A stretch of DNA of 48,086 nt from a virus (IMGVR_UViG_3300018891_000003:1-48086), one strand, 5' to 3'. Shown: positions 1 to 48,086, counted from the first letter of the stretch. A program made the numbers and translations. The notes: generated by a model not told the origin, from the letters alone.

Positions 1-127
1 GCTATTGTCCTTTTTAGGATGCTGATTTGTTCCTCAAGTTTCTTAACTTGTTCATCCATCCCTTTTGTCCCCTTTATATTGTTAATAAAGCCCCCTTGCT
101 AGGATTTGAACCTAGTCTAAAGGATTA
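1..127. repeat. terminal direct repeat (contig circularisation overlap)
   Basis: Identical base for base to positions 47960-48086. It cuts through a tRNA gene and the start of a small coding gene, both of which become complete when the ends are joined. This shows a circular or circularly permuted genome. The length of 127 is typical of an assembler k-mer overlap, so it is probably not a biological terminal redundancy. Confidence 0.95.
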
Positions 128-162
128 GAAGTCCTTTGTGCTATCCATTACACCACAAGGGG
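91..162 (-). tRNA. tRNA-Arg (anticodon UCU)
   Basis: A full cloverleaf can be drawn on the minus strand. The 7-bp acceptor is CCCCTTG/CAAGGGG, the anticodon arm is AAGGA-CTTCTAA-TCCTT with UCU at 34-36, and the T arm carries loop TTCAAAT. CCA is not encoded. The T loop has TTCAAAT where TTCGAAT is usual, consistent with the genome-wide CpG loss. It reads AGA, the main arginine codon of this phage. It lies 5 bp downstream of the second arginine tRNA, and the gene crosses the contig junction (its 3' half is repeated at 48050-48086). Confidence 0.95.
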
Positions 163-167
163 ATGTA

Positions 168-244
168 TGGTCTGCCTAGCAGGACTTGAACCTGCAACCT
201 TCCCATTAGGAGTGGGATGTTCTATCCAATTGAACTATAGGCAG
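168..244 (-). tRNA. tRNA-Arg (anticodon CCU)
   Basis: Cloverleaf on the minus strand: acceptor CTGCCTA/TAGGCAG, D stem GTTC/GAAC, anticodon arm TCCCA-CTCCTAA-TGGGA with CCU at 34-36, T stem GCAGG/CCTGC with loop TTCAAGT, discriminator A, then an encoded CCA at 168-170. It reads AGG. It is the first gene of a transcript from the promoter at 347-375 and is followed at once by tRNA-Arg(UCU). Together the pair covers every arginine codon that lacks CpG. Confidence 0.95.
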
Positions 245-346
245 TTGATTGAGGGAGATAGAGTGAAGGGAAGTGGCTGTTCCATCTGCCCCCCACACAA
301 CCTCACTTCATTGGGAGCATCCCCCTCAAGTTGTCCTTGTGTAATC

Positions 347-375
347 ATTGTATCATGTAAACTTAAAGATGACAA
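347..375 (-). promoter_or_regulatory. sigma-A type promoter for the arginine tRNAs and the dnaE operon
   Basis: Minus strand reads TTGTCA, a 17-bp spacer, then TACAAT. It is followed by about 95 nt of leader and tRNA-Arg(CCU). There is no obvious terminator between the tRNAs and the following 61-codon gene, so the transcript may run on into the split DNA polymerase. Confidence 0.75.
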
Positions 376-391
376 GAAGTTTTTTTTAAAA

Positions 392-568
392 TTATTGATT
401 GATTAGTTTGGGTAAATCTAAAAGGATTTTAATGATACCTGAAGCAATAGTGGCTCCCTTTTCTTCATCATCAAGCATTTCCCTGTCAAAGCCTAAATCC
501 TCTACAGTCAGCCCTCTTTCATACTCCAATTTCTCAATGAATTGTAATTGCTTTTCAGTAGCTTTCAT
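392..568 (-). CDS. small hypothetical protein, 58 aa
   Basis: ATG at 568 with a purine-rich ribosome-binding site (GAAAGGTAGG) just upstream; the stop is TAA at 392-394. The protein starts MKATEKQLQFIEKLEYERGL and continues with an acidic middle (DREMLDDEE) and a hydrophobic C-terminal helix. The opening resembles short phage proteins of the form 'TEKQ..FI.KL..ERG', for which I know no firm function. It is the last gene of the nrdJ transcript and ends just before the tRNA promoter. No CGN codons are used. Confidence 0.6.
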   Translation of the reverse strand: MKATEKQLQFIEKLEYERGLTVEDLGFDREMLDDEEKGATIASGIIKILLDLPKLINQ

Positions 569-653
569 GGTTAATACCTACCTTTCTTTAATTTGTCCTT
601 AAACCCTTCCATCCAAAAGATATAGACAATATACAACTCTAAAATCCTGTCCT

Positions 654-2855
654 TTATAAACTGCATGATTGACTTCCACACCCCTTGCATTGTGGGCATC
701 CTTCTACCAAGACAAATTCCTTGTGACCACAATTTCCACATGTCCAGTTTTCATACTTGCCCTTTTTCTGTGGGGCAGACTGCACTTCAGGTTGCTCTTT
801 TTCCACTTCCTCATTGTTCTCTAGGGACAAAATTTGCTCACTTCTTGAGCCATCCCTATAGATAGTGCCCCCCTTACATCCTGACTTGTAGAGATTTATA
901 TAAACTGCTTCACACTGCTCTACAGTGTAATCTGCAGGAGCATTAACTGTTTTGCTGATGGAAGAATCAATATATTTCTGTGCTACTGCCTGAACTGCCA
1001 CATGTTCTTCAGGGGATAAGTCCATAGCACCCACAAACCATTCAGGCAACTTGTCTAAATGAGGGTTTCTATCCATGAAGGCTTTAGCTACACCTGCATA
1101 CTGGATTGTACTTCCTATCCTAGACAATCTGTGATACTTCATAGCAAAGTGTGGCTCAATACCTGTACTTACAGAACCATGAATATCTAACATAGAAGGT
1201 GTCATACTTCCTGTGGTTCCTGTAGGAGCAAAAGTATTAAGAGTAAGGTTCCTGATACCATACTTTTCAATATCCTCTTTGATTTCTTTAGGGAGCCTTT
1301 GAACAAAGCCTGATTGCAGATACTTTTCTTTATCAAAGAATGGGAAGCATCCCTTTTCTTTAGCTAGTTCAATGGACATTTTATAGCTTTCATCCCTTAA
1401 GAATTTCATTAGTTGCTCAAAGACTTTAAGACCTTCAGGAGAACCATATTTTACTCTTAAGGCAATAAATAGGTCAGCTACACCCATTCCACCTAGACCT
1501 ACCCTTCTTTCACCCTTCTGCCAATCTTCCATAGCCTTATCAAAGTAGAAGGTCAAGTCAATGGCATTGTCTAGGAATCTTACACCTGTTCTAATGGTCT
1601 TTCTTAATAAGTCCCAGTCAATTTCATAAATATCACCCAGTTCATCTTCCCCTACTTTCTTAATCATCCTACCAAAGTTGACTGCAGAAAGATTGCAAGT
1701 AGAGTTGCCCAAAATTGGTTGTTCTCCACATGGGTTAGTAGCCATTACTAGCCCTAAATACCATCCATTGTGATTTCTATTGACTGTATCAATAAAAATG
1801 ACCCCCGGTTCTGCTGAACTCCAATTGGACTTCATTATCTTGTTCCACATATCTTTAGCCCTGATTTTTTTATAAACAATAACAGGTAATCCTGCCTTTT
1901 CCCATTTCTCAATATCTGCATCCCAAAGTTCATCATAAAGAGGGTGTGTAGTGTCAGGGAACTTCAATTCCCATTCTAAATCCTTCTCTACTGCTTCCAT
2001 GAACTTGTTAGAGATTAGGATTGAACTGTTATTGCCTTCCATGAAGCCTTGCTTATTTTTAGCCCCAATAAAGTCCTCAATGTAGTTAGGGTCATTTTCA
2101 TCATTGGTATAGAACACATCAGGATGCCAATCATGGATAGTGAGCATTTGTGCCCCTCTCCTATTGCCTTGATTGACAAAATCAGTGAGTTGGCTAAACT
2201 GGTTCCCAATATAAACTGCCCCTGCAGATTGTCCTTTTGTCTTGCTTAATGGGGAATATCTTGGTCTGAACACTGAAAGGTTAGTTCCTACTCCCCCACC
2301 CCTAGCCATGATTTCAGAAATTCTACCCATATGGTGGAAGATAGCCTGTCTACTATCCCTTCCCTTTTCAGGAGCATATGGGGCAGGTTCAACATTAATG
2401 ACATAGCAGTTAAAAAGTGTAACCTCTGAATCATCCCCTGCACCTGTCAAAATCCTTCCTGAAGGCACTAAATAGAAGTTCTCTAATGCTTCCTTAAACT
2501 CTTTATAAGCCTTCTCTCTAGCTTCAGGTGTTTGCTCTACAGAAGCTAAAGCCTTTGCCACCCTGTCTGCAGTTTCTGCATACCTTACTTCAAGAAGGGC
2601 ATCTATAAGGTTAATGTCCTGCACAAACTCCTGCCCTACCTGATACTCCACACCATCAGCAGTTTGCAGTTCCATAATTACCTTGTCACCCTGAATATCC
2701 TTTACAGTAGCAATTTCCCTGACTGGATACTTACCATCTTTCACTAGGGTTACTACTGTTGCACCCTTCTTGATGAATTTTTTCTTATCCAGTGTTTTCT
2801 TTGCATATCTTGTAAGATGAATTTTTCTGTGAAAGCCCTGTAATTCTACTCCCAT
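654..2855 (-). CDS. nrdJ: class II (adenosylcobalamin-dependent) ribonucleotide reductase
   Basis: Reduces ribonucleotides to deoxyribonucleotides in the cytoplasm, using coenzyme B12 to make the thiyl radical, so it needs no oxygen. Family landmarks visible: FNCYVI (first redox Cys), NPCGEQ (thiyl Cys and Glu) with STCNL ten residues on (second redox Cys), and TGTTGSMTP near residue 560. The C-terminal cysteine-rich tail holds CGNC, CPQCKGC and CGSQSC, a zinc-ribbon-like segment plus the disulfide-shuttling pair. Length is about 733 residues, normal for the monomeric class II enzyme. I chose ATG at 2855, five codons inside the longest frame, because GGAGAGG sits six bases upstream; ATG at 2870 has no usable spacing. 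One of the four CpGs of the genome (1806-1807) lies here, in a CCG proline codon. Confidence 0.93.
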   Translation of the reverse strand: MGVELQGFHRKIHLTRYAKKTLDKKKFIKKGATVVTLVKDGKYPVREIATVKDIQGDKVIMELQTADGVEYQVGQEFVQDINLIDALLEVRYAETADRVAKALASVEQTPEAREKAYKEFKEALENFYLVPSGRILTGAGDDSEVTLFNCYVINVEPAPYAPEKGRDSRQAIFHHMGRISEIMARGGGVGTNLSVFRPRYSPLSKTKGQSAGAVYIGNQFSQLTDFVNQGNRRGAQMLTIHDWHPDVFYTNDENDPNYIEDFIGAKNKQGFMEGNNSSILISNKFMEAVEKDLEWELKFPDTTHPLYDELWDADIEKWEKAGLPVIVYKKIRAKDMWNKIMKSNWSSAEPGVIFIDTVNRNHNGWYLGLVMATNPCGEQPILGNSTCNLSAVNFGRMIKKVGEDELGDIYEIDWDLLRKTIRTGVRFLDNAIDLTFYFDKAMEDWQKGERRVGLGGMGVADLFIALRVKYGSPEGLKVFEQLMKFLRDESYKMSIELAKEKGCFPFFDKEKYLQSGFVQRLPKEIKEDIEKYGIRNLTLNTFAPTGTTGSMTPSMLDIHGSVSTGIEPHFAMKYHRLSRIGSTIQYAGVAKAFMDRNPHLDKLPEWFVGAMDLSPEEHVAVQAVAQKYIDSSISKTVNAPADYTVEQCEAVYINLYKSGCKGGTIYRDGSRSEQILSLENNEEVEKEQPEVQSAPQKKGKYENWTCGNCGHKEFVLVEGCPQCKGCGSQSCSL

Positions 2856-2902
2856 GTCCAACCTCTCCATTCCTCTGTTTTTTTAAAAATCCTTGGATAA
2901 CA

Positions 2903-2921
2903 AATAGTTCAAGTTTGTAGG
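2903..2921 (-). promoter_or_regulatory. putative phage late promoter motif CTAC-N5-TGAACTATT
   Basis: Minus strand reads CCTAC-N5-TGAACTATTTG, about 48 nt before the nrdJ start. The same 13 fixed bases with the same 5-nt gap recur upstream of terS, portal, tRNA-Trp and other units. No sigma-A -35/-10 pair is visible here, so the motif may be a separate promoter class. Confidence 0.55.
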
Positions 2922-2956
2922 CAGAAATGCTTGCAAACAAAGGTGTAAACTAGCCC

Positions 2957-3211
2957 CTATTCTTCAGTTTCTTCATCATCTTCTATCCAACTCTCAAAGT
3001 AAATCATCTTTATATCTTTCTCATTTTGTACTTCATCAGGGAGCCTGTAATACTTTTCAATGCTGACATATTCAGCTTCAGGAACCATCTTTAAAAGGGC
3101 TTCAGCCACTAGCTTTGCTATGTCATAGCTTTCAAACCCATCAGTTTCATTGATGTATTCATCCTCTATGTCCCATAAAACAACCTTCCAAAACTCAACT
3201 AGACTGTCCAT
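2957..3211 (-). CDS. acidic hypothetical protein, 84 aa
   Basis: ATG at 3211 is preceded by GGTAAAGGGGG at good spacing. The protein is strongly acidic, ends in EDDEETEE and has two predicted amphipathic helices; no motif is recognised. It sits between thyX and nrdJ in the same direction, suggesting a role in the nucleotide or replication operon, but this rests on position only. Confidence 0.6.
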   Translation of the reverse strand: MDSLVEFWKVVLWDIEDEYINETDGFESYDIAKLVAEALLKMVPEAEYVSIEKYYRLPDEVQNEKDIKMIYFESWIEDDEETEE

Positions 3212-8469: not shown

Positions 8470-8555
8470 ACCCCTGCAAAGCAGGGGAAGTCTTTCAGAC
8501 TTCTACTAATTCTTTTTTAAAGGCAAAAACATATTACATGTGCCTTCGGCACATC
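8470..8555 (-). ncRNA. candidate structured small RNA with three triloop hairpins
   Basis: Directly downstream of a good promoter (8559-8587), the minus strand encodes three perfect 17-nt hairpins, each with 7-bp stems and a 3-nt loop. They are ATGTGCC-GAA-GGCACAT (8538-8554), GAAGTCT-GAA-AGACTTC (8487-8503) and CCCCTGC-TTT-GCAGGGG (8471-8487); the last two abut. The first begins at the expected transcription start. No credible ORF with a ribosome site exists. One of the four CpGs of the genome is kept in the first hairpin. The 3' end is only weakly terminator-like (GGGGTTCTT). Function unknown. Confidence 0.6.
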
Positions 8556-10534: not shown

Positions 10535-11329
10535 TTACACCCTTTCTTTAGTTTCTAATACTTCTTTGATTAACTCATAATAAGCATAAACTATAGGATT
10601 TTTAGCATCTGTCCATACTGCAGGTTTACCTTCATAAGCAGTAGAGTTAGCAAATCTGATTGACTTTGGTATAATGGTTTCATACATGGTAATATCTTGT
10701 TCTAAACAATACTTTCTAGCTTGTTGAAGCATTTCACTATGCAGATGGGTTCTACTATCTACCATCATGCCCACAACTCCTGCCACTTCTAGTTGTGGGT
10801 TTAAATTTTTTCTGAAGTCCTCAATAGCTTCTAAAACCCTGACTAAACCCTTCACTCCAAACATTTCAGGTACAAATGGAATAATGACCTTATCAGCCAC
10901 TGCTAAAGCATTTCCAGTAGGTAGTCCCATGCTTGGGGGAGTATCAATCAGTATGTAGTCATAGTGGTGTCTGATACTCTCAATGCCCTGTTTTAAAAGT
11001 TGGAATGGTAGTGGGTATTTATCCTGATGGGGCAGAACATCAAACTCCAAGAAACTCATATCTTCATTAGCAGGTAATAAGTCTAGGTTTTCATCTACTG
11101 AAATGATTACTTCATCTGTCCTTGCCCCACCCATAAGAACATCATAGATGGTGTTCATAATCTCACTGGGGTTCAATCCAAAGGCAATAGAACTGTTTCC
11201 CTGACCATCAGTATCAATGATAAGCACCTTCTTGTTATATTCCCTAGAAAGAACTCCTGCAAGGTTGGAAACAAGGCTTGTCTTACCTACACCACCTTTA
11301 TTCATAGCAATAGCATATGTAACAGTCAT
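10535..11329 (-). CDS. parA: ParA-type partition ATPase
   Basis: The deviant Walker A motif KGGVGKTS lies at residues 11-18. Then come LIIDTDGQGN (A' motif), IDTPPSMG (Walker B) and a C-terminal helix. Length 264 and lack of an N-terminal helix-turn-helix fit the small type Ib ParA, paired with an RHH protein as here. It moves low-copy plasmids over the nucleoid, so its presence suggests the prophage is maintained as a plasmid. Ribosome site GAAAGGGTGT precedes ATG 11329. Confidence 0.93.
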   Translation of the reverse strand: MTVTYAIAMNKGGVGKTSLVSNLAGVLSREYNKKVLIIDTDGQGNSSIAFGLNPSEIMNTIYDVLMGGARTDEVIISVDENLDLLPANEDMSFLEFDVLPHQDKYPLPFQLLKQGIESIRHHYDYILIDTPPSMGLPTGNALAVADKVIIPFVPEMFGVKGLVRVLEAIEDFRKNLNPQLEVAGVVGMMVDSRTHLHSEMLQQARKYCLEQDITMYETIIPKSIRFANSTAYEGKPAVWTDAKNPIVYAYYELIKEVLETKERV

Positions 11330-13321: not shown

Positions 13322-14161
13322 TTACTTTACCCTGATTTTCTGCCCTATCTGTAGTGCAGTGGCTTTGATGTTAGGGTTTAGTGCTTCTAGCTTTGCTACA
13401 GTAGTTTTGAATCTTTCAGCTATAGACCAAAGGGTATCCCCTTTTTGAATCACATAGTATTTCTGTGGCTTCAGGTAAACTTTATCACCTATCTGTAGAG
13501 CCTTTGCCTTCAAATGAGGGTTTAATTCCTCAAGTTGGGTTACAGAAATATTGTATTTTTGTGAAATGCCCCAAAGTGTATCTCCTTTTTGGATAATATG
13601 ATAGTCCTTGGATGGGGCAGGTTTAGGCTCCACCTTTTTAGGTGGATTTAGCTTTTCCTGAACCGTTTTCTTAAATCTTTCAAATTCTTTAGGGTTCTTC
13701 ACCCACCCTGCAGGGCAATTTTTCCCTGTAATGTCAAAATGCCTGTAAAGATTTTTAGCACTCAAGCCAAATAGCTTGCATAGCTGAACTACAATATCCA
13801 CTGTATTTTGGAATGTTTTTTCAGTGATATTCATGTTAGCATCTACACACATTTCTACCCCAATGGTTGTGAAGTTGGCATTATCACCAAGTTCCTTAGG
13901 GTAGCACCTGCCCCCATCATTTGCATGATAGGCTACTTCATCAAAAGGAATAAGCTGAATGGCTTCCTTTTCATCCACTGCAATATGTGCAGAAGCATAC
14001 CTTTCCTGTCTAATACAAGTCCCATCAAAGTAGTCTCTAATATTTTTAGCAGAAGCCCTAGGAGATGCAGTATAATGAAGAACAATTCCCTTTACTCCCT
14101 TTAGCTTCCTAGCAGGTCTAGTGTATTTATTTACCCTGATAAAGTCCTTTTTAATTATCAT
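13322..14161 (-). CDS. endolysin: N-acetylmuramoyl-L-alanine amidase with two LysM domains
   Basis: Amidase_2 domain at residues 20-160: VLHYTA and SAHIAV supply histidines, and RHFDITGKNCP supplies the third zinc ligand region. It cleaves the amide bond between muramic acid and the stem peptide. After a Pro/Lys linker come two LysM repeats, at about 188-232 (YHIIQKGDTLWGISQKYNI) and 235-279 (YYVIQKGDTLWSIAERF), for wall binding. No signal peptide is seen, so release depends on the holin. It overlaps the upstream holin-like gene by 11 nt. It contains a rare CpG (13664) in an ACG codon. Confidence 0.95.
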   Translation of the reverse strand: MIIKKDFIRVNKYTRPARKLKGVKGIVLHYTASPRASAKNIRDYFDGTCIRQERYASAHIAVDEKEAIQLIPFDEVAYHANDGGRCYPKELGDNANFTTIGVEMCVDANMNITEKTFQNTVDIVVQLCKLFGLSAKNLYRHFDITGKNCPAGWVKNPKEFERFKKTVQEKLNPPKKVEPKPAPSKDYHIIQKGDTLWGISQKYNISVTQLEELNPHLKAKALQIGDKVYLKPQKYYVIQKGDTLWSIAERFKTTVAKLEALNPNIKATALQIGQKIRVK

Positions 14162-15121: not shown

Positions 15122-18100
15122 TTAAATCCTCTTGCCACAAGCCACAACCTGAACCTGAATGGAATGGGTAAATGCCCCACCATCAACATCATGCAGATAC
15201 ACCCTTGCCCCTGTTGATGAAAGATTGTAGATAGAAGCAGTATATCTGTAGGAATTAACATTCACTGCAGTAGCTAGACACCATATTGGAGTTGCACTAA
15301 AAGCAACTGGGAAGTTAAAATCTGCAAAGGAGTATTTAGCATTACTGAAATTTACTGTTACTATGATGTTTTGTATCATCATCAAATCATCATGATTAGA
15401 ACCATCCCTGACAGAAAGCATGTTGTAGCCATTTGGATACTTATATCTTGGCATTTGCAGGTATCTAGTAGTTGCATCAAAAATCCACTTATCCCCTATA
15501 CTATTGTTGATAGTGACATTCCCACCATCAGGGTTTAAATGAAGGGTTCCTACCCCTCCACTACTGAAGGCTGAAAGTTCATTGGTATCCATTTTTAAAC
15601 TGTTGCCTGTTGTGGCATTACCAATAACAAACCCTACCCCCTGTGATGTCCCTGAAACATCATCTGTTGTAGGGATAAGGAGGTTGATATGGCTGGCTTC
15701 AATGGTTCCTGCTTTAACTTTTCCCCAAGTATTGATGGAAGGGTACTTATCCAACCCCCTTCTCATAATCCAAATATTATCTTCTGAATCATATACATGG
15801 GCTTGCTCACTCTCTACCACTTGGACACCATCAATTTCCACCCAGTTTGAGTTGGTTGTTTTAATTTCAATTTCTGCCCAGTATTCCATATAGTTGGAAA
15901 GAGCATTTGGAGCCATAACCCCTTCATATACAAACCTTCTAACTGCTCCATCCTGCCATAGTGGGGCAGAAAAGTTTTGAGTGTAGGATTGAACTAAAAA
16001 CCCTTCTCCATAGAAGGAAACCTTTAATTGTGGGATACCTACATTGGATTGAGAAGTATTGTAGTTAGAAAACTTGGCATGGAAAGAGATAGAATACTTT
16101 CTGTTAGGTCTTACTTGAAAGGCTTGTTTAACATAGTTGGCACTATTTACTGCAACTGCCTGATTTCCAAATGGGGCAGTGGAAGCCACATCAGTTTGAA
16201 GATTACTGTTTAATCTTGGATTTCCTACTGTTGCCCATTGATACCATAGGTCTGATTGTGCAGGAATAGCAAAATACCCATTAGAATCTACTGAACCTGT
16301 CCCCTCAATCATTTCAAAGGAGTGGTCAACAATCAGATTAGTTTTAGGACTTAACCTATACTTATGACCTGCTGAATTGCTATCCTCAAGAGTAAAGCTA
16401 CCATCCTTAACATTCACACCATTTTTATTAATGGTTGTAACTGCCCCATTAGTTCCCACTGTTATACCATTAGAGTTAATGGTAATTTCAGATGTGTTAG
16501 ACTGGACAGATACTAGGTCAGCATTAAGTGTCCCTGCCTTAATAACTTGGGCATTTAACCCTGCAGTAGCAATATGAGAAGTCTGAATGGCACCTGCTAC
16601 AATCTTATCTGCAGTAACAGAGTTGGAAGCTAATTCATTGGCAGTCAGGGTTCCTGAAGCTATCTTATTGGCAGTAATAGTCCTTGAAGCTATTTGGTTA
16701 GCAGTGACAGTACCAGTGTAAATATCCCCACCATCAATATAAGTGGTATTAGAATATTTCCACCCATCCACTAAACTCTTTGTGTCACTGTATTGAGTGT
16801 CTGCATAGCTTTTTGCATTATTTTCTGCAGTATCAATCATCCCTTTTGTTTCAGAAGGCATTTCCACTACTTTAGGGTTAGCTACCCATACATTTTTAGC
16901 TACTCCATTATTATAGAAGTTAAGCCATCTAACCCTAATGTATTTGGTATTAGGGAGCATCCTAGCAGAGTGGGTAATATTCTCACCCAATCCCTTGAAT
17001 TTAGATAGGTCTGTGCCTGCAGGCATTATATAGGCAGTCCTCTTAATCCAAGTGTTGATAGGGTCATTATCACCACTCCAAAAGTAAGGGTTAGTGTTTT
17101 TTGTAGCTAATGTAGTGTCACTGATATTGACCATATCAATACCAATATTTTCTTGTGAAGCATCATAGCCATACAGACCAAAATAATCTGTTCCTCCCAA
17201 TCCATCAGCCATAAACCAAAATGTAACCTCATAGGCTTTGGATGGGTCTACTTCAATAAAATCAGATATGACCATAGTATTTCCACTGGTATATACCTGC
17301 TGAACAGGTACTGTTGCACCAAAAAAGTCCTTATTCACCACTGATAATGGTGAGCCTGTCCATTTGTCTAATGTTCCTGTCTTTGTAGTATTGTTGATAA
17401 GGTTGCCATATTTGCTGTCAGCATAGGTTTTAGCATTATTTTCTGCAGTACTAATCTTGCTATCAGTAGTAGCAGTATCATATGCCCCTATATCAATAGC
17501 TTGTGTAGGAGTGGCATATACCCAAGTGGAACCATCCCATCTTCTCAATCTGTTAGGGTTTACAGAAGTGTCAAGCCAAAAATCATCCACTTGAGGGTTA
17601 GATGGGGCAGTAGATTGTCTTGGTATTCCTTTTTCTCTGCTTTCTGCAATAGCTTGTGCATTGTTTGCAGTAGTTTCTGCCTGTTGTGCAGTGGCTTCAG
17701 CATTTTGAGCAGTATTCAGGGCATTGGAAGCATCATTTTGTGCCTGTGTTGCTTTATTCTCTGCATTAGTGGCAGTGGTTTCAGCATTAGCTGCTTTATT
17801 CTCAATTGCCCCAATTGTGGAGCCTGTTGTAGTATTAATCAATTCTCCACTAGCTACTTGAATTTGGATAGGGTTGTATTCATCATCTACCACAACCATT
17901 GAACCTGCCTGAACTGCAGAACTATGATGGACATTATTCAAGGTATTCTGACCTTTTTCTAGCCTCTTAAAGAAGTCAAATAAATCTTTCTTCCTGTTAG
18001 CTAATGTGACCTTAATTTGCTCTGTTTGATTGTAAGTAACAGAGTAAGAAAGAACCCTCATGGCTTCAGAAATATTATTCTTGAAGTCCTCTACCCAAAC

Positions 18101-24471: not shown

Positions 24472-24545
24472 TGGCATGGACTAGAGGAATTGAACCCCTA
24501 CCTGTGGAGTTGGAAACCACAATGCTACCCTTACACCAAGTCCAC
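24472..24545 (-). tRNA. tRNA-Trp (anticodon CCA)
   Basis: Minus-strand cloverleaf: acceptor GTGGACT/AGTCCAT, short D arm, anticodon arm GTGGT-TTCCAAC-TCCAC with CCA at 34-36, T arm AGGGG-TTCAATT-CCTCT, G73 and an encoded CCA (24472-24474). G73 agrees with bacterial tRNA-Trp. The 31-39 pair is a T-T mismatch, which is unusual. It lies alone inside the tail operon, between tail tube and chaperone, 40 bp after a late promoter motif. Confidence 0.85.
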
Positions 24546-29745: not shown

Positions 29746-30645
29746 CTAATGCTTTAGCTTATTTACAGGTGTCCATTGTGGATTATCAAAGCCATCCTGT
29801 GGCTTTTCTACTTTACTAAAATCATCTTCTGTCCAATCCTCATATCTTGTGATTGGAAGAAGGATGCTTCTGCAGTTAAAGTGGTTAGGTGGCAAATACA
29901 CACTAATCAGTGGACTATCTATAGCCATTATCTTGCCATGTAGTCCTCTACATAATGGAGTAGTCCTTTTATCAAGGATAGCAGAGTATTGCAAGGCTTC
30001 TACAAACCCTCTCCTAGACTTGTATTGCTCTAGCCTTCCACTGTTATAGGCTTTTGTGCTTTCAGTCCTTGCTATTGTGTGGAGCCTGTTTGTAGTAAAC
30101 CCATCATAACTAGCATCATTCTGCAACTTCTTCACAATATCCTGAATGTGCAAGCCTTCTTCAATAGATGTTTTTACAGTGCCCTGAATGTTGTCTAAAA
30201 TTGCCTGTTCAAACACCCCTGCAAGGTAAATTGCATAGGCAGAATACCAATTTAATGATTGTTCAGGTACAACCTCTACTGAAGGTAAGGTTTCAATACT
30301 AGGTGGTTCTTCAGGATGTTCTGAAAATGCCCTTTGCTTCTTCTTGAAATAGGCATCAATCATCTGCAGTTCTTTTTCTGACTGCTTGAAACCCTCTAGG
30401 AAGGTCTTTACAAAGAAATACTCCATTGTAGCAATCAAGTATTTATCCTTCCCTTTAGAATAGTTCACTTTAGTAGGGGTTTTTACCTCATTTACCATCA
30501 TTTGTAAAAAATCTTTTGACTTCACATATTCCTTTACCCTAGTGATAAAATCATCCTCAAGCCCATTCAGAATATCTAGGGTCTTTTTTACATCAATAAA
30601 ACTCTCTCTAAAAGCTAGGGTAACTTCTTCTGAATGGGTATCTAC
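29746..30645 (-). CDS. Mu gpF-like minor head protein, made as a -1 frameshift fusion to portal
   Basis: MuF signature at the C terminus: ARTESTKAYNSGRLEQYKSR, ILDKRTTPLCRGLHGKI and PPNHFNCRSILLPI. The open frame extends 40 codons upstream of the first possible start (GTG 30525) right up to the portal stop, with no ATG, GTG or TTG in that stretch and no ribosome site at the GTG. It is in the -1 frame to portal across the slippery GGGAAAG at 30645-30651. I therefore read it as the C-terminal part of a portal-MuF fusion of about 774 residues; 30645 is the first base of the extension. Confidence 0.8.
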   Translation of the reverse strand, partial: VDTHSEEVTLAFRESFIDVKKTLDILNGLEDDFITRVKEYVKSKDFLQMMVNEVKTPTKVNYSKGKDKYLIATMEYFFVKTFLEGFKQSEKELQMIDAYFKKKQRAFSEHPEEPPSIETLPSVEVVPEQSLNWYSAYAIYLAGVFEQAILDNIQGTVKTSIEEGLHIQDIVKKLQNDASYDGFTTNRLHTIARTESTKAYNSGRLEQYKSRRGFVEALQYSAILDKRTTPLCRGLHGKIMAIDSPLISVYLPPNHFNCRSILLPITRYEDWTEDDFSKVEKPQDGFDNPQWTPVNKLKH

Positions 30646-30651
30646 TTTCCC
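30562..30651 (-). other. programmed -1 frameshift element (slippery site and stem)
   Basis: On the mRNA: G GGA AAG TAG, the canonical heptamer GGGAAAG (30651-30645) overlapping the portal stop. Then a 6-nt spacer TAGATA, then CCCATTCAGAA (30638-30628), which pairs perfectly over 11 bp with TTCTGAATGGG (30572-30562), closing a 55-nt loop. Heptamer, spacer length and stem are all as in known -1 frameshift signals; the same heptamer is used in lambda G-T. Confidence 0.82.
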
Positions 30652-32069
30652 TCTGTCTTGTCTAAATTGCCCCTACCTTTAGAGTTAAGTGGATGTGAGC
30701 CTGAATCTTTAGTGCCCTTGGAAGTTGGATTTCCTCTTGCCCCTTCTTCATCATCAGATGGGGCAGGGTTCTTGGAGTTTTCAACATCATGCTCCAATCT
30801 CTGCAACTTCAATTCAGCTTCTTTCTTAACCCTATCCTTGTGTTCCTTGTCCATGACAGGGAAGCCTAATTCATCCCTAATCCAATCTTCTGTAGGCTCA
30901 AGAATTTGGGCATTAACAAGTTTAAAGAATATGTCTGATAGTTTGTCCCTATCCTTATCTTGTAATGGAGCAAATTTCATTTCAGGATAAACCTCTTGCT
31001 TGCCAAAGTTAATATCAATGAGTTTTTTGATAATCTTCTCATTGATTACTTTCTCTAACTGTCTTTGGATGCTTTGAAGTCTGAATAAGTACATATCAAA
31101 ATGTGACTGCCCCAAAGCATATGAGCCTGTTCCTGAACCCTCATTACCAAACAACAAGGAAGGAATCATTAGCCCCCTCAAAATCATCATGTTATGATGG
31201 TTAATGTATGCCACAAAATCCATACTTTTTGTTGTGTCCAGTACCTTAATATCTTCAGTTCCTGAAATAGCTACCCCTGTTCTGCCTAAAATATTGTCCA
31301 AAACAGCCCTCATTTTACTAACCTCATTCTTGTTAGTAACCTTGCCTACCAAAAGTGGGCTACCATTTCTCTCATAAGCCATGTTTGCAAACTTATAAAT
31401 GTAGTTCTTAATGTACCAGTGGTTATGAACTGCATGTAGGGCAGAGCTTCCATATGGGTTCCCAAACTCTGCATCAAAAGAGTAAATAATAACCTTATCC
31501 TTTGGTATTCTGATGGTCTTGGAGCCAATCTCTTGAATAACCTCAACTACATCCCCATAGTCATTCTGCCTAAATTTGATGGAAACTGGATTTAAGACTT
31601 TAGCCTTTTTTAAGCCAATTTTGCCTTTCCATTTCCCCTCTTTATACCTGATGAAAACTGGTTCAGTAACAGAAAAACCTGCCCAAATAGCAGAAAGCAT
31701 TTGGTCTAGTGTTTCATCAAAAGAGTGTTCCATATTTTTGAAAGCATAGTTTAAAAACTCAATCTGCTTATCATATTCATCCATCTTTTCTACATCCAAA
31801 TCCTGCAGTGGTCTTTTAAAAACATATCCCTTTGCTAAAATTGGAAGCCTTAAAGCCAAAAGACCTGCCCTGCACTGTGCATCTGTCTTTCTCATTTTGT
31901 TATATGTTTCAATGCCTACAGGGTCAGGGTTGTCATCAATACCATGATTGTATCTTGAAACATAACTATCCCTGTAAAGAGATAATTCTTCCAACAAATC
32001 CTCTACAGATAGTTCTGCAGGTTGTGTCTTGTCAATCCTGCCCTCCCTAAATCTATCAAAGAACCCCAT
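30642..32069 (-). CDS. portal protein, DUF935/Mu gp29-like, 475 aa
   Basis: Forms the ring at the portal vertex. Blocks typical of the Mu-like portal family: YNKMRKTDAQCRAGLLALRL, AIWAGFSVTEPVF, DKVIIYSFDAEFGNPYGSSA and MIPSLLFGNEGSGTGSYAL. The C-terminal 50 residues are a polar, Gly/Ser/Lys-rich tail (DDEEGARGNPTSKGTKDSGS) ending at a slippery site, so this tail would be the linker in the fusion with MuF. Confidence 0.88.
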   Translation of the reverse strand: MGFFDRFREGRIDKTQPAELSVEDLLEELSLYRDSYVSRYNHGIDDNPDPVGIETYNKMRKTDAQCRAGLLALRLPILAKGYVFKRPLQDLDVEKMDEYDKQIEFLNYAFKNMEHSFDETLDQMLSAIWAGFSVTEPVFIRYKEGKWKGKIGLKKAKVLNPVSIKFRQNDYGDVVEVIQEIGSKTIRIPKDKVIIYSFDAEFGNPYGSSALHAVHNHWYIKNYIYKFANMAYERNGSPLLVGKVTNKNEVSKMRAVLDNILGRTGVAISGTEDIKVLDTTKSMDFVAYINHHNMMILRGLMIPSLLFGNEGSGTGSYALGQSHFDMYLFRLQSIQRQLEKVINEKIIKKLIDINFGKQEVYPEMKFAPLQDKDRDKLSDIFFKLVNAQILEPTEDWIRDELGFPVMDKEHKDRVKKEAELKLQRLEHDVENSKNPAPSDDEEGARGNPTSKGTKDSGSHPLNSKGRGNLDKTEGK

Positions 32070-32199: not shown

Positions 32200-33780
32200 T
32201 TAAAATAACCTACTTTCAATATCCAGTAGATAATCTAAATCAAATTCTCTCCTATCTCCAAGTTCATAATCCAACTGCCTTGTACCATATTCTAGTGCTA
32301 TCCTTGCATAATTCAATGAGTGCAAAGCATCATCATTAGCACCTGAAGGCTTTATGAGACTGATATATCCTGTTTTCCCACTTGTTGGAGTTACAGGTTT
32401 AGCTTCTACACAAGTGTAGTGTTTGAAAACCACATCATCAAGTAGGGCAGGATAGGCATAAGGGATTTCAATTTTTCTTTCTTTGAACAGGTCAATGGTT
32501 TCAAATAGCTGATAGTTCCTGTCTATCACTAATTGAGTACCATCATCATTTTCCCTAATTAGTTCAGGTTCCCTTGAGCCAACTACATAAAATGCAGATT
32601 TCACCATATTGCCCCAGTAATCCTGAAGCATCTGAATTTGCATAGCACCAAACCCACTATCAGCCACTACCCCTTTTACATTGAACCTTTCAATTAGCTT
32701 ATGAATCATTTCAACTTGGGTAGGAATATGCATTTCTTGGAACCTGTCAACATAGACCAATTCAATCTTATCTGTAATTGGGTTCTGTGATAGGATTGTA
32801 ACTACTGTGTAAGCAGAAGTTCCCCCTCCCCAGTCAATTCCCAAAAAGCACTCTCTACCTGCAGGAGCCTTGCTCCAAAAGGCTTTAGAAGGGTCTAAAC
32901 AAGGCTTAATCATTTCAATGGTTAGTGGCTTGAGAAGTCCTGAATAGAACTCTCCTAGAACCTCATTGGCAAATTTCATTTCATCATAGGTTCTTCTTTT
33001 ATACTCAATTTCTTCCTCTGTAATCCAAGGCATCATTGTTTGGCTTAATAAATACCCTCTAAACAGACATTTTTCAGGGTCTTGTGTAGGTATCCATTTT
33101 TGTTGCTTTCTATCCCAAACCCTCTTGTCAGATAACTCCCAAAACCTCTCATAAAGTGTTCCAGTTTGCTTTGGTGTTCCTGCCATCAGCACCTTGCCCC
33201 TTAACCTTGTATCCTTCCCATTAATTTTAACAGTGGTAACAACCTCACTGTGGGAAAGAGTTTCTACTAGGGTACTGTAAGAGCCTTCTTCAATATCCTG
33301 CATTTCATCAAAGAGGATAAAATCACCTGAAATACCCCTCAAGCTATCTCCATCATTCCAAGCAGAACCTATATAGAGTTGATGATGGTTTTTAAACTTG
33401 TAATGGGTAACAGTCTGTTTATCAATGGATTGCATTAAGATACCACCTTTAGACTGTTTCAGGGCATTTAAGAACCTGTCAGAAGAAAACCTTGTGGCTT
33501 GCTCATACCTTGGGGCAACATAAGTAGATGTTCTATAGGGTTGTGTGAAGGCATTGTGTATAATTTTCCTTGTGATGGTTTCAGATTTCTCTACCTGCCT
33601 TCCTGCAACAAGGATAATCCTTGGGTGGTCATCCCTGTAAATCTCATAAAGATGCCTTCTATCTTGTGTAGGGTCATTTGGGTCATAGAACTTAAAGTCA
33701 TGCCCCTTTACTGTTCCAAATGTTTCTGTAAAGAAAACAGGGTCTTTTAGCTTTTCAATTACTTCAGGGGATAATTTCAT
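32200..33780 (-). CDS. terL: terminase large subunit, 526 aa
   Basis: DNA-packaging motor. The ATPase half has the deviant Walker A VAGRQVEKSE (near residue 57) and Walker B FILFDEMQDIEEG. The coupling motif follows around MAGTPKQTGT. The nuclease half begins CFLGIDWGGGTSAYTVV and has GVVADSGFGAMQ, giving the RNase H-fold acidic residues. Its ATG overlaps the stop of the small subunit gene by 4 nt. Confidence 0.93.
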   Translation of the reverse strand: MKLSPEVIEKLKDPVFFTETFGTVKGHDFKFYDPNDPTQDRRHLYEIYRDDHPRIILVAGRQVEKSETITRKIIHNAFTQPYRTSTYVAPRYEQATRFSSDRFLNALKQSKGGILMQSIDKQTVTHYKFKNHHQLYIGSAWNDGDSLRGISGDFILFDEMQDIEEGSYSTLVETLSHSEVVTTVKINGKDTRLRGKVLMAGTPKQTGTLYERFWELSDKRVWDRKQQKWIPTQDPEKCLFRGYLLSQTMMPWITEEEIEYKRRTYDEMKFANEVLGEFYSGLLKPLTIEMIKPCLDPSKAFWSKAPAGRECFLGIDWGGGTSAYTVVTILSQNPITDKIELVYVDRFQEMHIPTQVEMIHKLIERFNVKGVVADSGFGAMQIQMLQDYWGNMVKSAFYVVGSREPELIRENDDGTQLVIDRNYQLFETIDLFKERKIEIPYAYPALLDDVVFKHYTCVEAKPVTPTSGKTGYISLIKPSGANDDALHSLNYARIALEYGTRQLDYELGDRREFDLDYLLDIESRLF

Positions 33781-37174: not shown

Positions 37175-37681
37175 TTACTGTAAAACTTCCATATAGATAC
37201 CATTTCCAAGATAGGCAAATGTCCCATTAATTTCCATATCTCTGCCCACTGCATCCCAGTCAATGTAATTAATTAGGTTACTTGGTATATTTTCCATTTG
37301 CCCAGTTTCCTCATACCAAGCATAGGCAACATCTGCCATGTTATAGCAGTCATGAAAGAATGTTACTGCCCCATCTTTTACCAATTGGACTGCATCTTCA
37401 TAGTCTGATACAAATCCAAGTTCTAACAATTCCCCCACTGCCTTAATCTCATATTCTGCCATCCCTTCCAACATTTCTGCTACTTCATTAAGTTTGTCAA
37501 TGGAAGTATATTCCTCAATTTTAAATGGTGCTTCATAGTCATGAATGGCATATTCTTCATATTGGGCATTTAATCCAATTTTTTCTGCAATTTCTTCCAG
37601 TGATGCTGGAAGTGTAAACCATTCCCCTTGTAAAATCCCTTCATTGTATTTTCCCAAGTTAGCTACATAAATGTTAATCAT
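37175..37681 (-). CDS. ardA: ArdA-type antirestriction protein, 168 aa
   Basis: An acidic DNA-mimic that inhibits type I restriction enzymes. Family blocks: YVANLGKYNEGILQGEWFTL at the start, EYAIHDYEAPFKIEEYTSID in the middle and NYIDWDAVGRDMEINGTF at the end. The high Asp/Glu content and length 168 are as in ArdA. It has its own strong promoter and leader, as expected for a protein needed right after DNA entry. Confidence 0.93.
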   Translation of the reverse strand: MINIYVANLGKYNEGILQGEWFTLPASLEEIAEKIGLNAQYEEYAIHDYEAPFKIEEYTSIDKLNEVAEMLEGMAEYEIKAVGELLELGFVSDYEDAVQLVKDGAVTFFHDCYNMADVAYAWYEETGQMENIPSNLINYIDWDAVGRDMEINGTFAYLGNGIYMEVLQ

Positions 37682-39589: not shown

Positions 39590-40234
39590 TTAATTAATAG
39601 GTTTACCTTTTCTTTTGTAGTCTGTTCTCAACTTATACATAAAACCAATAAGTGTTTTGTCATCATATAATTCAAAGTCCCCCACCATCTTTCCTTCACC
39701 CTTCTTGAAGGGAAGAAAAACATGTGTGCTAAAGTCTCTACCGTTCCCTCTTTTCTCCTTGTGCTTCAGGTTCTGCCTACTCCAAGGAGTATCTACAAAC
39801 AGATGAACATAATGCTCTCTCATATTGTCTAAATCCTGAATAGTTACATCAATCCCCTTTTGCCAATCATCATCATGGTCATACAAGACTTTAAATCCAT
39901 GTGGCTCATAAAGTTCTTTCATCCTGATAATGGCATGTTCTTCTCTTACCAGTGACTTATAAGCCCTCTTTGCTCTTGCTTCCAAGCCTAATCTATACCT
40001 ATCATAATCAGTCATTAGCCTTTCCATTGGGAATAGTGGGATAGTTTTTTGAAGGAACTTTTCTACAAATTCTTTTTCAGTGGGTACTAAATGAGGGTAT
40101 CTCTCTCTTAATTCACTGTAAGCAGAAATACCTTTATAAACCCCTTTGCCATATTCTACTGGATTGAAAGAGTAGTTTAGATAGAATGTTGGAATGAGTT
40201 TAAGCTGATTTTCAAAGTCCTTTGAAGATAACAT
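39590..40234 (-). CDS. hypothetical protein, 214 aa
   Basis: Helical N-terminal half, then a mixed domain with HDDDWQKGIDVTIQDLDN and YVHLFVDTPWSRQNLKHKEK. The Asp-x-Val/hydrophobic pattern hints at a PD-(D/E)XK-like fold, but the catalytic set is not clear. ATG 40234 follows the conserved AACAATGTAAAGGG leader; the frame continues upstream to 40432 but crosses the promoter and leader. One of the four CpGs lies here (39742), at an AAC-GGT codon junction. Confidence 0.5.
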   Translation of the reverse strand: MLSSKDFENQLKLIPTFYLNYSFNPVEYGKGVYKGISAYSELRERYPHLVPTEKEFVEKFLQKTIPLFPMERLMTDYDRYRLGLEARAKRAYKSLVREEHAIIRMKELYEPHGFKVLYDHDDDWQKGIDVTIQDLDNMREHYVHLFVDTPWSRQNLKHKEKRGNGRDFSTHVFLPFKKGEGKMVGDFELYDDKTLIGFMYKLRTDYKRKGKPIN

Positions 40235-40436
40235 ATAAATCCACCCTTTACATTGTTTTGTCCTTGTGTCAACTTGATGATTACTTGAGCCTAAACAAAA
40301 AGGGTTCACTACCCTGAACCATTGGTTAGGATAGCAAACCCCTTTTGCTTCTCTACATAGTTCCATCTGCCCCACCTGTGTACTATGCAGAACAAAAGAT
40401 GATGAAGAACACCTTTTCTTATCACCCTTCACTATT

Positions 40437-42362: not shown

Positions 42363-42367
42363 ATTGT

Positions 42368-44454: not shown

Positions 44455-45840
44455 CTATACCAACTTTATCCTGTTGGCTAATACATTCTTTACATCCTTT
44501 TGCCCAGTGATAATCAGCATCTTGCCTTCCTTGCATTTATCTTTATGCTTGGCATAGATGGCAGGGAATACTGTTACATCCCTGTTTCCTTCAGGAGTAT
44601 TTAAGACTAGGAAGCACATTAACTGCCCCCTCTTTGTCTTGATTTCTTTTACCCTTGTGACTTCTCCACCAATGGTTGCTTCTGCCCCTTGTGGGACTGA
44701 ATCATAAGGGATAAAGCTATATTTATCTAATGGATGCCCTGACAGATATAGTCCTAGCACTTCCATTTCCCACCTTAATTTAGTGCTATCAGGGTTTAGC
44801 TTATCTTCTTCAGTAATGAGTGGCTTTCCTTCTCTTTCCTTTTTTGGTCTTTTGGACTGGTAATATTCCATAATTTCAAGCCTATCATCTGTTTCATCAA
44901 AGGCTCCTGCCTTGATAAGCCCTACAATGCACCCTTTCTTTACCTCTGAACCCTTAAAGACATTGGAAGAAAGAAAATCTTCAAAGTTGGCATAGGGTCT
45001 ATTCTCAATTATCTGCTTAATGGCTTTTGTCCCAACACCCCTGATGGCATTTAAGGCAAATAGGATTTTTCCATTAACCTCTGTAAACTCATGAGCAGAT
45101 GAATTGATTAGTGGGGCAGTCACTTCAATACCCATTTCCCTAGCTTCTTCTACATACTTGGCTATTTCTTCTAACTTCTTGGATTTGGAATCCTCTTTAT
45201 CTTCATCCTGAAGTTCTGCAGACATAGTGGAAGCCATGAATTTAACAGGATGATTAGCCTTCAGATAGGCAGTCTGATAAGTGACCAAGGCATAGGATGC
45301 AGAATGTGACTTGTTAAAGAGGTATTTTGCCCCTTTCTCTATCCAATTCCAAAGGATAACTGCTAAATCCTTGTTGTAGCCATTCTTTACACAACCTTGA
45401 ATAAACTTATCTTTTAGCTTTGCCATTTCTTCAGGAAGTTTCTTACCCATAGCTTTCCTTAAATAATCCCTTTCTCCTGCAGTAAACCCTGCAAATACAC
45501 CTGCTATCTCCATCATCTGTTCTTGATATATTAGCTGTCCTTTTGTTGGGGCTAAAATTGGCTCTAGGTCAGGATGGATATATTCAGGCTTGATTTCTCC
45601 ATTGGCAACCTTGATATACCTTTCTACCATTGTTAGCCCATCCTCACCCTTAATGGTGAGTGGACTTGGTCTATATAAAGCTATAATGTCTATGACTTCA
45701 TCAAAGGTAGTGGGCTTAATACTCCTTAAAAGCTGTTGCATCCCTACACTTTCTACCTGAAATACCCCTGCAGTGTCACCCTCTTGGAGTAGCTTAAAGG
45801 TTTTTTCATCATCCATAGGGATGTTGAGAATATCAAACAT
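44455..45840 (-). CDS. dnaE: DNA polymerase III alpha, C-terminal part (fingers to OB fold)
   Basis: Begins MFDILNIPMDDEKTFKLLQE and continues GDTAGVFQVESVGMQQLLRS, DIIALYRPSPL, IYQEQMMEIAGVFAGFT, YLFNKSHSASYALVTYQT: the fingers and following domains of DnaE in correct order. Then come a helix-hairpin-helix region (FALNAIRGVGTKAIK) and an OB-like end. The catalytic aspartates are not here; they are in the upstream gene. ATG 45840 is set by GAAAGGAG seven bases before it; two earlier ATGs are on or before that site. With the N-terminal gene it makes a complete polymerase of about 1030 residues. Confidence 0.88.
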   Translation of the reverse strand: MFDILNIPMDDEKTFKLLQEGDTAGVFQVESVGMQQLLRSIKPTTFDEVIDIIALYRPSPLTIKGEDGLTMVERYIKVANGEIKPEYIHPDLEPILAPTKGQLIYQEQMMEIAGVFAGFTAGERDYLRKAMGKKLPEEMAKLKDKFIQGCVKNGYNKDLAVILWNWIEKGAKYLFNKSHSASYALVTYQTAYLKANHPVKFMASTMSAELQDEDKEDSKSKKLEEIAKYVEEAREMGIEVTAPLINSSAHEFTEVNGKILFALNAIRGVGTKAIKQIIENRPYANFEDFLSSNVFKGSEVKKGCIVGLIKAGAFDETDDRLEIMEYYQSKRPKKEREGKPLITEEDKLNPDSTKLRWEMEVLGLYLSGHPLDKYSFIPYDSVPQGAEATIGGEVTRVKEIKTKRGQLMCFLVLNTPEGNRDVTVFPAIYAKHKDKCKEGKMLIITGQKDVKNVLANRIKLV

Positions 45841-45881
45841 TGTCATACTCCTTTCTGTCATTTTGGCAACTTAATGATTAC

Positions 45882-46118
45882 TCAACCCACCAAAATAACC
45901 TCTTTGTCTACATCTAGCACAACCACTTCAAGTCCTAGATAGTACCTATAGTGAAGGGTATCAGTATATTTAGGCTGAATGGTCTTTTGTTCATGGTCAA
46001 AAGCTATGGCAGAATACTTGTCCAACACAATCTTGTTTGCTTCTAATCCTTTTGCTCTTTGCTCATAAATCAGGTCATTAATCAGAGCAGTCACTGTACT
46101 TGACTTTTTGTTTTCCAC
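45882..46118 (-). CDS. 78-aa ORF lying between the two dnaE parts
   Basis: GTG 46118, with the ribosome site GAGGGGG lying in the last codons of the upstream dnaE part. The product starts MENKKSSTVTALINDLIYEQ and ends in a beta-rich segment (YLGLEVVVLDVDKEVILVG). It is not an intein half (no Cys/Ser at the junction, no C-terminal HN) and not a homing endonuclease. It may be a linker subunit joining the polymerase halves or an unrelated insertion. Confidence 0.6.
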   Translation of the reverse strand: MENKKSSTVTALINDLIYEQRAKGLEANKIVLDKYSAIAFDHEQKTIQPKYTDTLHYRYYLGLEVVVLDVDKEVILVG

Positions 46119-46120
46119 TG

Positions 46121-47833
46121 TTATGCCCCCTCTGCATTGATTAAGTCCACTGTCTTGTTAATGACAGACAGAGTTTTAACACCTAACAGGTCAAATTTCA
46201 CTAACCCTAATTCCTCACATACTCCCATATCTACTGCAGACATTGGCTCCCCATACTTATCTTCCATAAGAGGAATCACTTCATCCAGTGGTCTGTCTGC
46301 TATGATGTAAGCACAAGCATGTTGGGAAAAATGCCTTACCCTTCCCTCAATCTGTTTGGCATACTTCCATATAGAGTGTTCATACTGCTTCATGTACTTT
46401 CTAAATTCTTCACTTTCATTGTAGGCTTCTTCTAGTGTAATAGAAGGTCTGTCAGGAATACTTTTAGCTATGGCATCACCAAGGCTATATGGGTAGCCAC
46501 ACACCCTTACAACATCCCTGATTACCCCTTTAGCACCAAAGGTTCCATAAGTAACTACAGAGCAAACTTTGTCATGACCATATTTCTCTTTAAGATACCT
46601 GACCACTGCCCCTCTGTCTGCAAAGTCCACATCAATATCAGGTAGGGAGTTCCTTTCAGGGTTTAAGAATCTTTCAAACAGTAAGCCATATCTGATAGGG
46701 TCTAGTTCCACTATCCCTAGGAGCCATGAAACCAGTGAGCCACCTGCAGAACCCCTTCCATAGCCCACCACTATTCCATTATCCCTTGCCCATTTAATGA
46801 AGTCCTGAACAATCAGGAAGTATCCACTAAAACCTTTATTGATGATAACATCAAACTCATACAAAATTCTGTCTACATACACCTTCTGTTCCTGTTTGGA
46901 AAGTTTATTTAATCCCCTTCTTGTCCATCCTTCTCTGCATAGTTGCTTCAAATATTCTTCTTCAGTCTTAAATGGGGCAGGAACAGGGAATTTAGGTAAC
47001 TTTATGCTTGTATCAATCTCATAACCCTCTACCTGTTCTGCAATCTTTACAGTGGTTTCTACTGCTTCCCTTGCCACTGCTTCAGGAACACCAGTAAACT
47101 CCATCAGTTGCTTTATAACTTCCTCACCTTCTGACCAATAGTTATGCTTATAAACATCACTATCAAAGTCCCCTATCTTGGTAAGAACCCTATGGGTTAG
47201 GTAATCATCTTTCCTTAAGTAGTGAACATCTTGAGTGGCTACAATGCCTACCCCTAAATCTTTATACCATGAAGCATAAGCCTGATTGACTTTCTTCTGC
47301 ATGGTATGTTCATTAGGTTGTATCTCAAGGTAAAAATCATTACCAAAAATCTTTTTAAATCTTTTGATGGTCTTTTTAGCCCCAAGGTAGTCCCCTTCAG
47401 CAATCTGCCTTTGACTTACCCCTGCCAAACATGCTGATAAGCAGATAAGACCATCCTTGTACTGTTCTAATAATTTATAATCTATCCTTGGTCTGTTATA
47501 AAAGCCTTTTAAGTGGGAAATAGTTGTTAGCTTAAGGAGATTTTTTAAGCCTTGAGTGTTCTTTGCTAAAAGAACTAGATGGTAATGTCTTGTGCCTTTT
47601 TCTTTGATAGAAATATCTTCTGTGATATATACCTCATTCCCTACAATAGCTTTCACACCATGTTTTCTTCCTGCCTTGATAAAATCCCAAAAGTCATTCA
47701 TCACACCATGATTAGTTAATGCTACTGCAGGTTGCCCTAATTCCTTGGCTCTTAAGACAATTTCTTCAGCACTTGCCATCCCATCCAATGTACTCATTTG
47801 GGAGTGTAAGTGGAGTTGACAAAAGAAGTCCAT
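46121..47833 (-). CDS. dnaE: DNA polymerase III alpha, N-terminal part (PHP and palm)
   Basis: PHP domain at the start (CQLHLHSQMSTLDG, ALTNHGVM, GNEVYI), then polymerase palm: GYGRGSAGGSLVSWLLGI, LPDIDVDFADRG (two catalytic Asp), HFSQHACAYIIA and GLVKFDLLGVKTLSVIN (third catalytic Asp). It stops 15 codons later, where an ordinary DnaE would go on into the fingers. Thus all three catalytic Asp are in this 570-residue chain. Stop and next GTG are 3 bp apart. Confidence 0.9.
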   Translation of the reverse strand: MDFFCQLHLHSQMSTLDGMASAEEIVLRAKELGQPAVALTNHGVMNDFWDFIKAGRKHGVKAIVGNEVYITEDISIKEKGTRHYHLVLLAKNTQGLKNLLKLTTISHLKGFYNRPRIDYKLLEQYKDGLICLSACLAGVSQRQIAEGDYLGAKKTIKRFKKIFGNDFYLEIQPNEHTMQKKVNQAYASWYKDLGVGIVATQDVHYLRKDDYLTHRVLTKIGDFDSDVYKHNYWSEGEEVIKQLMEFTGVPEAVAREAVETTVKIAEQVEGYEIDTSIKLPKFPVPAPFKTEEEYLKQLCREGWTRRGLNKLSKQEQKVYVDRILYEFDVIINKGFSGYFLIVQDFIKWARDNGIVVGYGRGSAGGSLVSWLLGIVELDPIRYGLLFERFLNPERNSLPDIDVDFADRGAVVRYLKEKYGHDKVCSVVTYGTFGAKGVIRDVVRVCGYPYSLGDAIAKSIPDRPSITLEEAYNESEEFRKYMKQYEHSIWKYAKQIEGRVRHFSQHACAYIIADRPLDEVIPLMEDKYGEPMSAVDMGVCEELGLVKFDLLGVKTLSVINKTVDLINAEGA

Positions 47834-48018
47834 TAGAATCTTCCTTTCTTGTGGGAGTTATTTTTATACTGGGGCTTCTTCTTCTGCCCTATTTCCTTAA
47901 TCTTGTCCTGTAAAAGTCTAATTTGCCTTTTTTGATTTTTATTTTTCCTTCTTAAGTTGGCTATTGTCCTTTTTAGGATGCTGATTTGTTCCTCAAGTTT
48001 CTTAACTTGTTCATCCAT
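47833..48018 (-). CDS. small basic coiled-coil protein, 61 aa
   Basis: Heptad helix (KKLEEQISILKRTIANLRRK) with many Lys/Arg/Gln and a basic tail (KKKPQYKNNSHKKGRF). ATG 48018 follows the leader AACAATATAAAGGGG. It lies between tRNA-Arg(UCU) and dnaE and overlaps dnaE by one base. Possibly a polymerase-associated or DNA-binding peptide. Confidence 0.6.
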   Translation of the reverse strand: MDEQVKKLEEQISILKRTIANLRRKNKNQKRQIRLLQDKIKEIGQKKKPQYKNNSHKKGRF

Positions 48019-48086
48019 CCCTTTTGTCCCCTTTATATTGTTAATAAAGCCCCCTTGCTAGGATTTGAACCTAGTCTAAAGGATTA
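47960..48086. repeat. terminal direct repeat, second copy
   Basis: Identical to 1-127. It includes the start of the 61-aa gene and the 3' part of tRNA-Arg(UCU). Confidence 0.95.

Follow-up and report, generated by a model that had tools for sequence, protein, structure and literature searches.

Phages are known to avoid the recognition sites of restriction enzymes, an effect described mainly for orthodox Type II sites and found to be weaker in temperate phages (PMC6286503). Avoidance has so far been known for words of 4–6 bp. In vertebrates, the classic cause of CpG loss is methylation followed by deamination. Prokaryotic CG methyltransferases have been described as known only from Mollicutes, where the CpG observed-to-expected ratio (O/E) of M. 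agalactiae is about 0.46–0.5 (PMC9465063). Here we describe a viral sequence of 48,086 nt (the window, by which we mean the whole stretch of DNA analysed) from which about 1,600 sites of a single dinucleotide, CG, have been lost. A literature search for a CpG-free phage found no description of one, although this does not prove that none exists.

The genome and its relatives

The window carries a 127-bp direct terminal repeat and therefore is probably a complete phage genome (Table 1). It encodes terminase, Mu-type portal, capsid and tail proteins, DnaB, a split DnaE, ThyX and ribonucleotide reductase, and further a serine recombinase, HTH repressor-like proteins, ParA and ArdA. The structural and replication genes together with the terminal repeat agree with the sequence-only reading, made before this analysis, which had taken the window for a 48-kb phage genome. 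The ParA-type ATPase suggests that the prophage is extrachromosomal (a phage-plasmid), and the lineage looks temperate or plasmid-like. The DnaE-type polymerase alpha at 44455–47833 is divided between two ORFs that flank a third, small one, and phiT1 (see below) is annotated alike. A tRNA-Trp(CCA) gene at 24472–24545 lies between tail genes (Rfam support of 51 bits). A tRNA-Asp predicted by ARAGORN at 17287 was rejected, since its position falls within a tail gene and Rfam did not confirm it.

Synteny links the window to the isolate Rossellomorea phage phiT1 (PV767480.1) and to two circular phage-plasmids, one of Halobacillus litoralis (NZ_CP129017.1; the Halobacillus plasmid) and p_ACL01CRY2 (LC810155.1) from bacterium ACL01CRY2. 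With each of these three relatives it forms 36–37 reciprocal orthologue pairs at 52–55% amino-acid identity. Synteny and reciprocal orthologues, among structural and replication genes, place it in a phiT1-like family of Bacillaceae phage-plasmids. More distant kin are Geobacillus phage GBK1, Bacillus phages PS1, BpsS-36, Finn and 276BB001, and a Staphylococcus phage. Judged from this kinship, the host probably belongs to the Bacillales. When viral contigs were searched with terminase, capsid and portal queries only distant matches were returned, with a CpG O/E of 0.5–1.3 where measured; scans of genome contigs gave no match, and a megablast of half of the window against phages gave none either.

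Table 1. Coordinates of features in the window.
Feature	Position	Strand	Remarks
Probable complete phage genome, 4 CpG	1..48086	.	127-bp direct terminal repeat, 1-127 = 47960-48086
tRNA-Arg(UCU)	90..162	-	reads AGA; CpG-free, T-loop TTCAAAT
tRNA-Arg(CCU)	168..244	-	reads AGG; CpG-free
Residual CpG 1 (CCGG)	1806..1807	.	within ribonucleotide reductase gene
Residual CpG 2 (TCGG)	8547..8548	.	only non-coding CpG; inside 17-bp inverted repeat ATGTGCCTTCGGCACAT
ParA-type partition ATPase	10535..11329	-	
Residual CpG 3 (CCGT)	13664..13665	.	within amidase/LysM endolysin gene
Mu-type portal	30642..32069	-	69% identical to p_ACL01CRY2, 53.5% to Halobacillus plasmid
Terminase large subunit	32200..33780	-	62% identical to phiT1; query for finding relatives
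ArdA antirestriction protein	37175..37681	-	PF07275, E 1.6e-38; annotated in three closest relatives too
Residual CpG 4 (CCGT)	39742..39743	.	within ORF 39590-40432

CG is lost throughout the window

When all 16 dinucleotides were counted, CG occurred in the window four times rather than in hundreds of copies (Table 1), against 1,630.5 expected from base composition, which corresponds to a two-strand O/E of 0.002. The sequence-only reading had named the same four positions and estimated that composition would give well over a thousand copies, and the exact count agrees with it on both points. The GC dinucleotide was ordinary (O/E 0.95), as were the other dinucleotides; CC/GG was raised to 1.42, in part because C is barred from standing before G. 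The second residual CpG forms the centre of its inverted repeat (8539–8555), which is intergenic and lies upstream of a repressor-like gene.

All ten NCGN contexts in the window were at or near zero. Observed and expected counts were 0/329 for ACGA, 0/196 for GCGA, 0/196 for ACGC, 0/117 for CCGC, 1/196 for CCGA, 2/196 for ACGG and 1/59 for CCGG, and GCGC, TCGA and ACGT did not occur. The earlier statement that the loss goes beyond the avoidance of a few palindromes needs the nuance that many restriction sites are avoided in the window as well.

The loss was alike at all codon phases and in the non-coding DNA of the window, where a single CG was observed and 188 were expected. None of the 554 arginine codons was CGN, and NCG codons were almost completely missing. 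At codon junctions, C made up 42.6% of the third bases of pyrimidine-ending codons before a base other than G, versus 0.1% before G. Coding, intergenic and tRNA sequence, including the CpG-free tRNA-Arg genes, as well as the codon junctions, are thus all affected, as had been proposed.

Arginines were retained and written as AGR, whose share of the arginine codons in the window is 100%. Genes for tRNA-Arg reading AGR codons were present in four of four clade members (the window and its three relatives, phiT1 carrying tRNA-Arg(UCU)) versus none of three outgroups (GBK1, PS1 and BpsS-36). The loss of CGN arginine codons was absorbed by AGA and AGG codons along with the phage-encoded tRNA-Arg(UCU) and tRNA-Arg(CCU).

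Relatives avoid complementary sets of CG words

Among the relatives, CpG O/E was 0.012 in p_ACL01CRY2, 0.078 in phiT1 and 0.28 in the Halobacillus plasmid. The distant Bacillus and Geobacillus kin were much less depleted than the window (0.23–0.74), with BpsS-36 at 0.23 and other distant kin at 0.64–0.74. Plasmid DNA associated with related hosts was not depleted, the O/E being 0.83 for R. vietnamensis p6 and 0.74 for the Rossellomorea AcN35-11 plasmid. A compositional bias of the host, which the sequence-only reading had named as a finding that would overturn it, was rejected on these values of 0.74–0.83 for plasmid-borne DNA.

The words that were lost differed between relatives. phiT1 has kept CCGG (86 copies, O/E 1.3) and has mostly lost the remaining CG words. 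In the Halobacillus plasmid CCG occurred 2 times versus approximately 850 expected, and other CG words were kept: CCGG, CCGC and CCGT were absent and CCGA occurred twice, with TCGA, ACGA, GCGA and GCGC tolerated. The forbidden sets of phiT1 (mainly DCG) and the Halobacillus plasmid (CCG) are therefore complementary, and their union equals the set of words avoided by the window and p_ACL01CRY2. In BpsS-36, CCGG, GCGC and GCGG were absent and ACGC was kept. Since syntenic relatives have lost different CG words, a single mutation bias or translational preference cannot be responsible.

In phiT1 the per-strand survival of CpG depended on the 5′ neighbour of C, at 0.015 for A, 0.020 for G, 0.185 for T and 1.13 for C. 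Survival multiplied over the two strands (model deviance 8.2, 6 df). Positions beyond the adjacent base mattered much less, and the residual CpGs of phiT1 showed no comparable preference there.

The four clade members, and they alone, carry a dispersed octamer in strong excess. As TGGGGCAG it occurred 39 times in the window (1.8 expected) and 40 times in the Halobacillus plasmid (1.6 expected), and as AGGGGCAG it occurred 47 times in phiT1 (2.0 expected) and 40 times in p_ACL01CRY2 (1.4 expected). Its core GGGGCA was found in 70–85 copies per genome (85 places in the window), on both strands and with a spacing more even than random. We can only guess that the octamer might be a Chi-like or partition signal. 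The Bacillus Chi word, AGCGG, includes a CG and does not occur in the window.

Type II sites are missing from both strands

Motif expectations were taken from Markov models rather than from codon-exact nulls, and a known Type II recognition site was scored as eliminated at an O/E below 0.1. Sites below this threshold in the window, none with CG in the recognition word, included GATC (0 observed, 135 expected), GGCC (0/91), CCWGG (0/102), GGWCC (1/51), GGSCC (0/49), CTNAG (2/198), GCNGC (1/50), GAGTC (0/33), CTCTTC (0/26), GAAGAC (0/22), GAATTC (0/20) and AAGCTT (0/27). None of these sites was missing from a control Rossellomorea phage-plasmid; overlapping sets were missing from the relatives of the window. 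CTCTTC, GAAGAC and GAGTC were absent from both strands of the window, in which nearly all genes lie on one strand. This disappearance of non-palindromic sites from both strands indicates that double-stranded DNA, and not RNA, is under selection.

The outgroups avoid classic sites as well and are moderate in CpG. CCGG occurred once in GBK1 (102 expected), once in Finn and not at all in BpsS-36, GGCC was at zero, and CCGG, GCGC and CGCG were lost individually. Further short words were purged from BpsS-36, with CAGG found 2 times versus 257 expected and GAAC 23 times versus 204 expected.

Mutation, translation or restriction

The sequence-only reading had offered a CG methyltransferase with deamination as one route to the loss, whereby CpG would be methylated and then converted to TpG/CpA. 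Besides an excess of TpG/CpA, this route predicts C-to-T change at the ends of codons, G-to-A change in NCG codons and a loss of arginines written as CGN. It did not hold up. An excess of TpG/CpA was absent, the ratio of TG/CA in the window to a null without CG but with equal margins being 0.95. The C and G lost at degenerate sites had spread to all bases, not just to T or A; four-fold sites before G were shifted to A by +0.13 and to T by +0.05, and NCG codons of phiT1 corresponded in the window to NCT 21 times and to NCA 8 times. Consistent with deamination, CpGs of phiT1 were most often matched by TG/CA in p_ACL01CRY2 (42 of 89), though transitions are generally frequent. With GBK1 as the reference, arginines written as CGN were kept as often as those written as AGR (39.0% versus 39.7%) and were replaced by His, Gln, Cys or Trp as often (5.8% versus 5.9%). 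With PS1 the corresponding values were 40.5% versus 29.8% and, from small counts, 10.7% versus 3.2%; the substitution test is clear with the former reference and mixed with the latter. Residual CpGs of phiT1 were rarest in arginine codons (7 of 145), where purifying selection should keep them if deamination were the cause. No C5-cytosine methyltransferase (PF00145) was found in the window or in six related phage and plasmid genomes, and the word sets of the relatives are opposite. The missing TpG/CpA footprint, the lack of a phage cytosine methyltransferase and the restriction context together make host composition unlikely and deamination, which we rejected, highly improbable. Selection on RNA or translation, by a CpG-reading RNase or in hosts short of tRNA decoding CGN, would fit the phage tRNA-Arg(UCU) and tRNA-Arg(CCU) and the exclusive use of AGR. 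Yet the purge was equal in NCG codons, at codon junctions and in non-coding DNA, and non-palindromic restriction sites were lost from both strands. The junctions and the non-coding DNA contradict this explanation, and we give it very little credence. Complementary word sets, arginine recoding, uniform loss and the purge of Type II sites instead bear out the original suggestion of selection against CG at the level of DNA.

CG has very likely been purged through counter-selection by restriction of double-stranded DNA in the host. We infer that nucleases caused the purge, and likewise which nucleases these may have been. The phage-plasmid lineage would then escape restriction mainly by shedding recognition words and not by modifying its DNA: it has lost most classic Type II sites plus every CG, and ArdA may cover Type I enzymes. 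Against host restriction, published avoidance is weaker in temperate phages (PMC6286503), to which this lineage appears to belong.

Of the ten NCGN contexts, the six asymmetric ones were emptied as fully as the palindromes. Palindromic 4-bp enzymes therefore cannot account for the loss of CG, which leads us to infer one or more agents recognizing CG itself, or NCG on a single strand. A classical restriction–modification system of the host, of CG or DCG/CCG specificity and cutting unmethylated CG, is a tentative candidate: all ten contexts were evenly purged in the window, other Type II sites were purged in parallel, and the loss in p_ACL01CRY2 is nearly as total. However, such a host would have to methylate every CG, the 5′-neighbour specificity seen in phiT1 and the Halobacillus plasmid is not expected of a plain CG enzyme, and we know of no 2-bp restriction endonuclease. 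As CG methyltransferases have been described only from Mollicutes (PMC9465063), either a CG restriction–modification system or CpG methylation in Bacillales would be new. It is conceivable, if rather doubtful, that some hosts methylate CpG in the phage DNA and that others then attack it with Type IV nucleases specific for the 5′ neighbour (McrBC-like, RmC; FspEI-like, CmC), the union of which would remove every CG. The Halobacillus plasmid, which forbids only CCG (0.004), resembles the product of a CmC reader, CmC being the specificity of FspEI. The 5′-neighbour rule in phiT1, multiplied over strands, is what an RmC reader such as McrBC would give (PMC12707154), and the weak influence of more distant positions is in keeping with it. 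In contrast, the approximately fivefold reduction of TCG in phiT1 is not predicted by RmC, and a large survey saw no notable avoidance of Type IV sites (PMC6286503). There may also be no CG reader, CG having been lost as the sum of many ordinary CG-containing Type II specificities in a rich host pool over time. The lineage does purge very many Type II sites, and the outgroups lose CCGG, GCGC and CGCG singly. But among the NCGN contexts only CCGG, GCGC, TCGA and ACGT are palindromic 4-mers, ACGA, GCGA and ACGC are equally empty, and the Halobacillus plasmid has lost the whole trinucleotide CCG evenly, which makes this summation unlikely.

Given host restriction as the preferred cause, Bacillales hosts could well carry an undescribed defence that reads CG, or the NCG flavours DCG and CCG, and is able to drive genomes to near-zero CpG; we regard this proposal as evenly poised. 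The defence might take the form of 2–3 bp restriction–modification or of CpG methylation combined with Type IV nucleases. The window would then show the reach of selection by DNA-reading defences, in that a genome was rewritten and its arginine fully recoded, with phage tRNAs to match. Through their complementary word sets, cultured relatives would make phage genomes a readout of the specificity of a defence, and would bring the idea of a bacterial defence that reads CG within reach of direct tests in culturable hosts.

Comparison with known systems

The closest isolate, phiT1, resembles the window in synteny, in a mean amino-acid identity of approximately 55% over 37 genes, in CpG depletion and in carrying tRNA-Arg(UCU) and ArdA; it differs in tolerating CCGG fully and CCGA partly, and in having ParM in place of ParA. 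The Halobacillus plasmid and p_ACL01CRY2 share the gene set of the window, ArdA, depletion of CG words and tRNA-Arg for AGR. In contrast to the window, the former loses CCG only and the latter keeps 19 CG, six of which are CCGG.

Restriction-site avoidance taken to the scale of a dinucleotide is a known phenomenon at a new extreme. As in the survey of Rusinov et al. 2018 (PMC6286503), where double-stranded DNA phages lose Type II words up to full elimination, more than 10 sites have been lost from the window. Its lost unit, however, is a dinucleotide (or NCG) with more than 1,600 expected copies, and the lineage is apparently one of temperate phage-plasmids. Mollicutes with CG methyltransferases (M.SssI, M.MpeI) provide the other likeness, CG being the affected unit in prokaryotic DNA there too. 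In contrast to the O/E of 0.46–0.5 in M. agalactiae, that of the window is 0.002, and it is reached in a phage without a methyltransferase.
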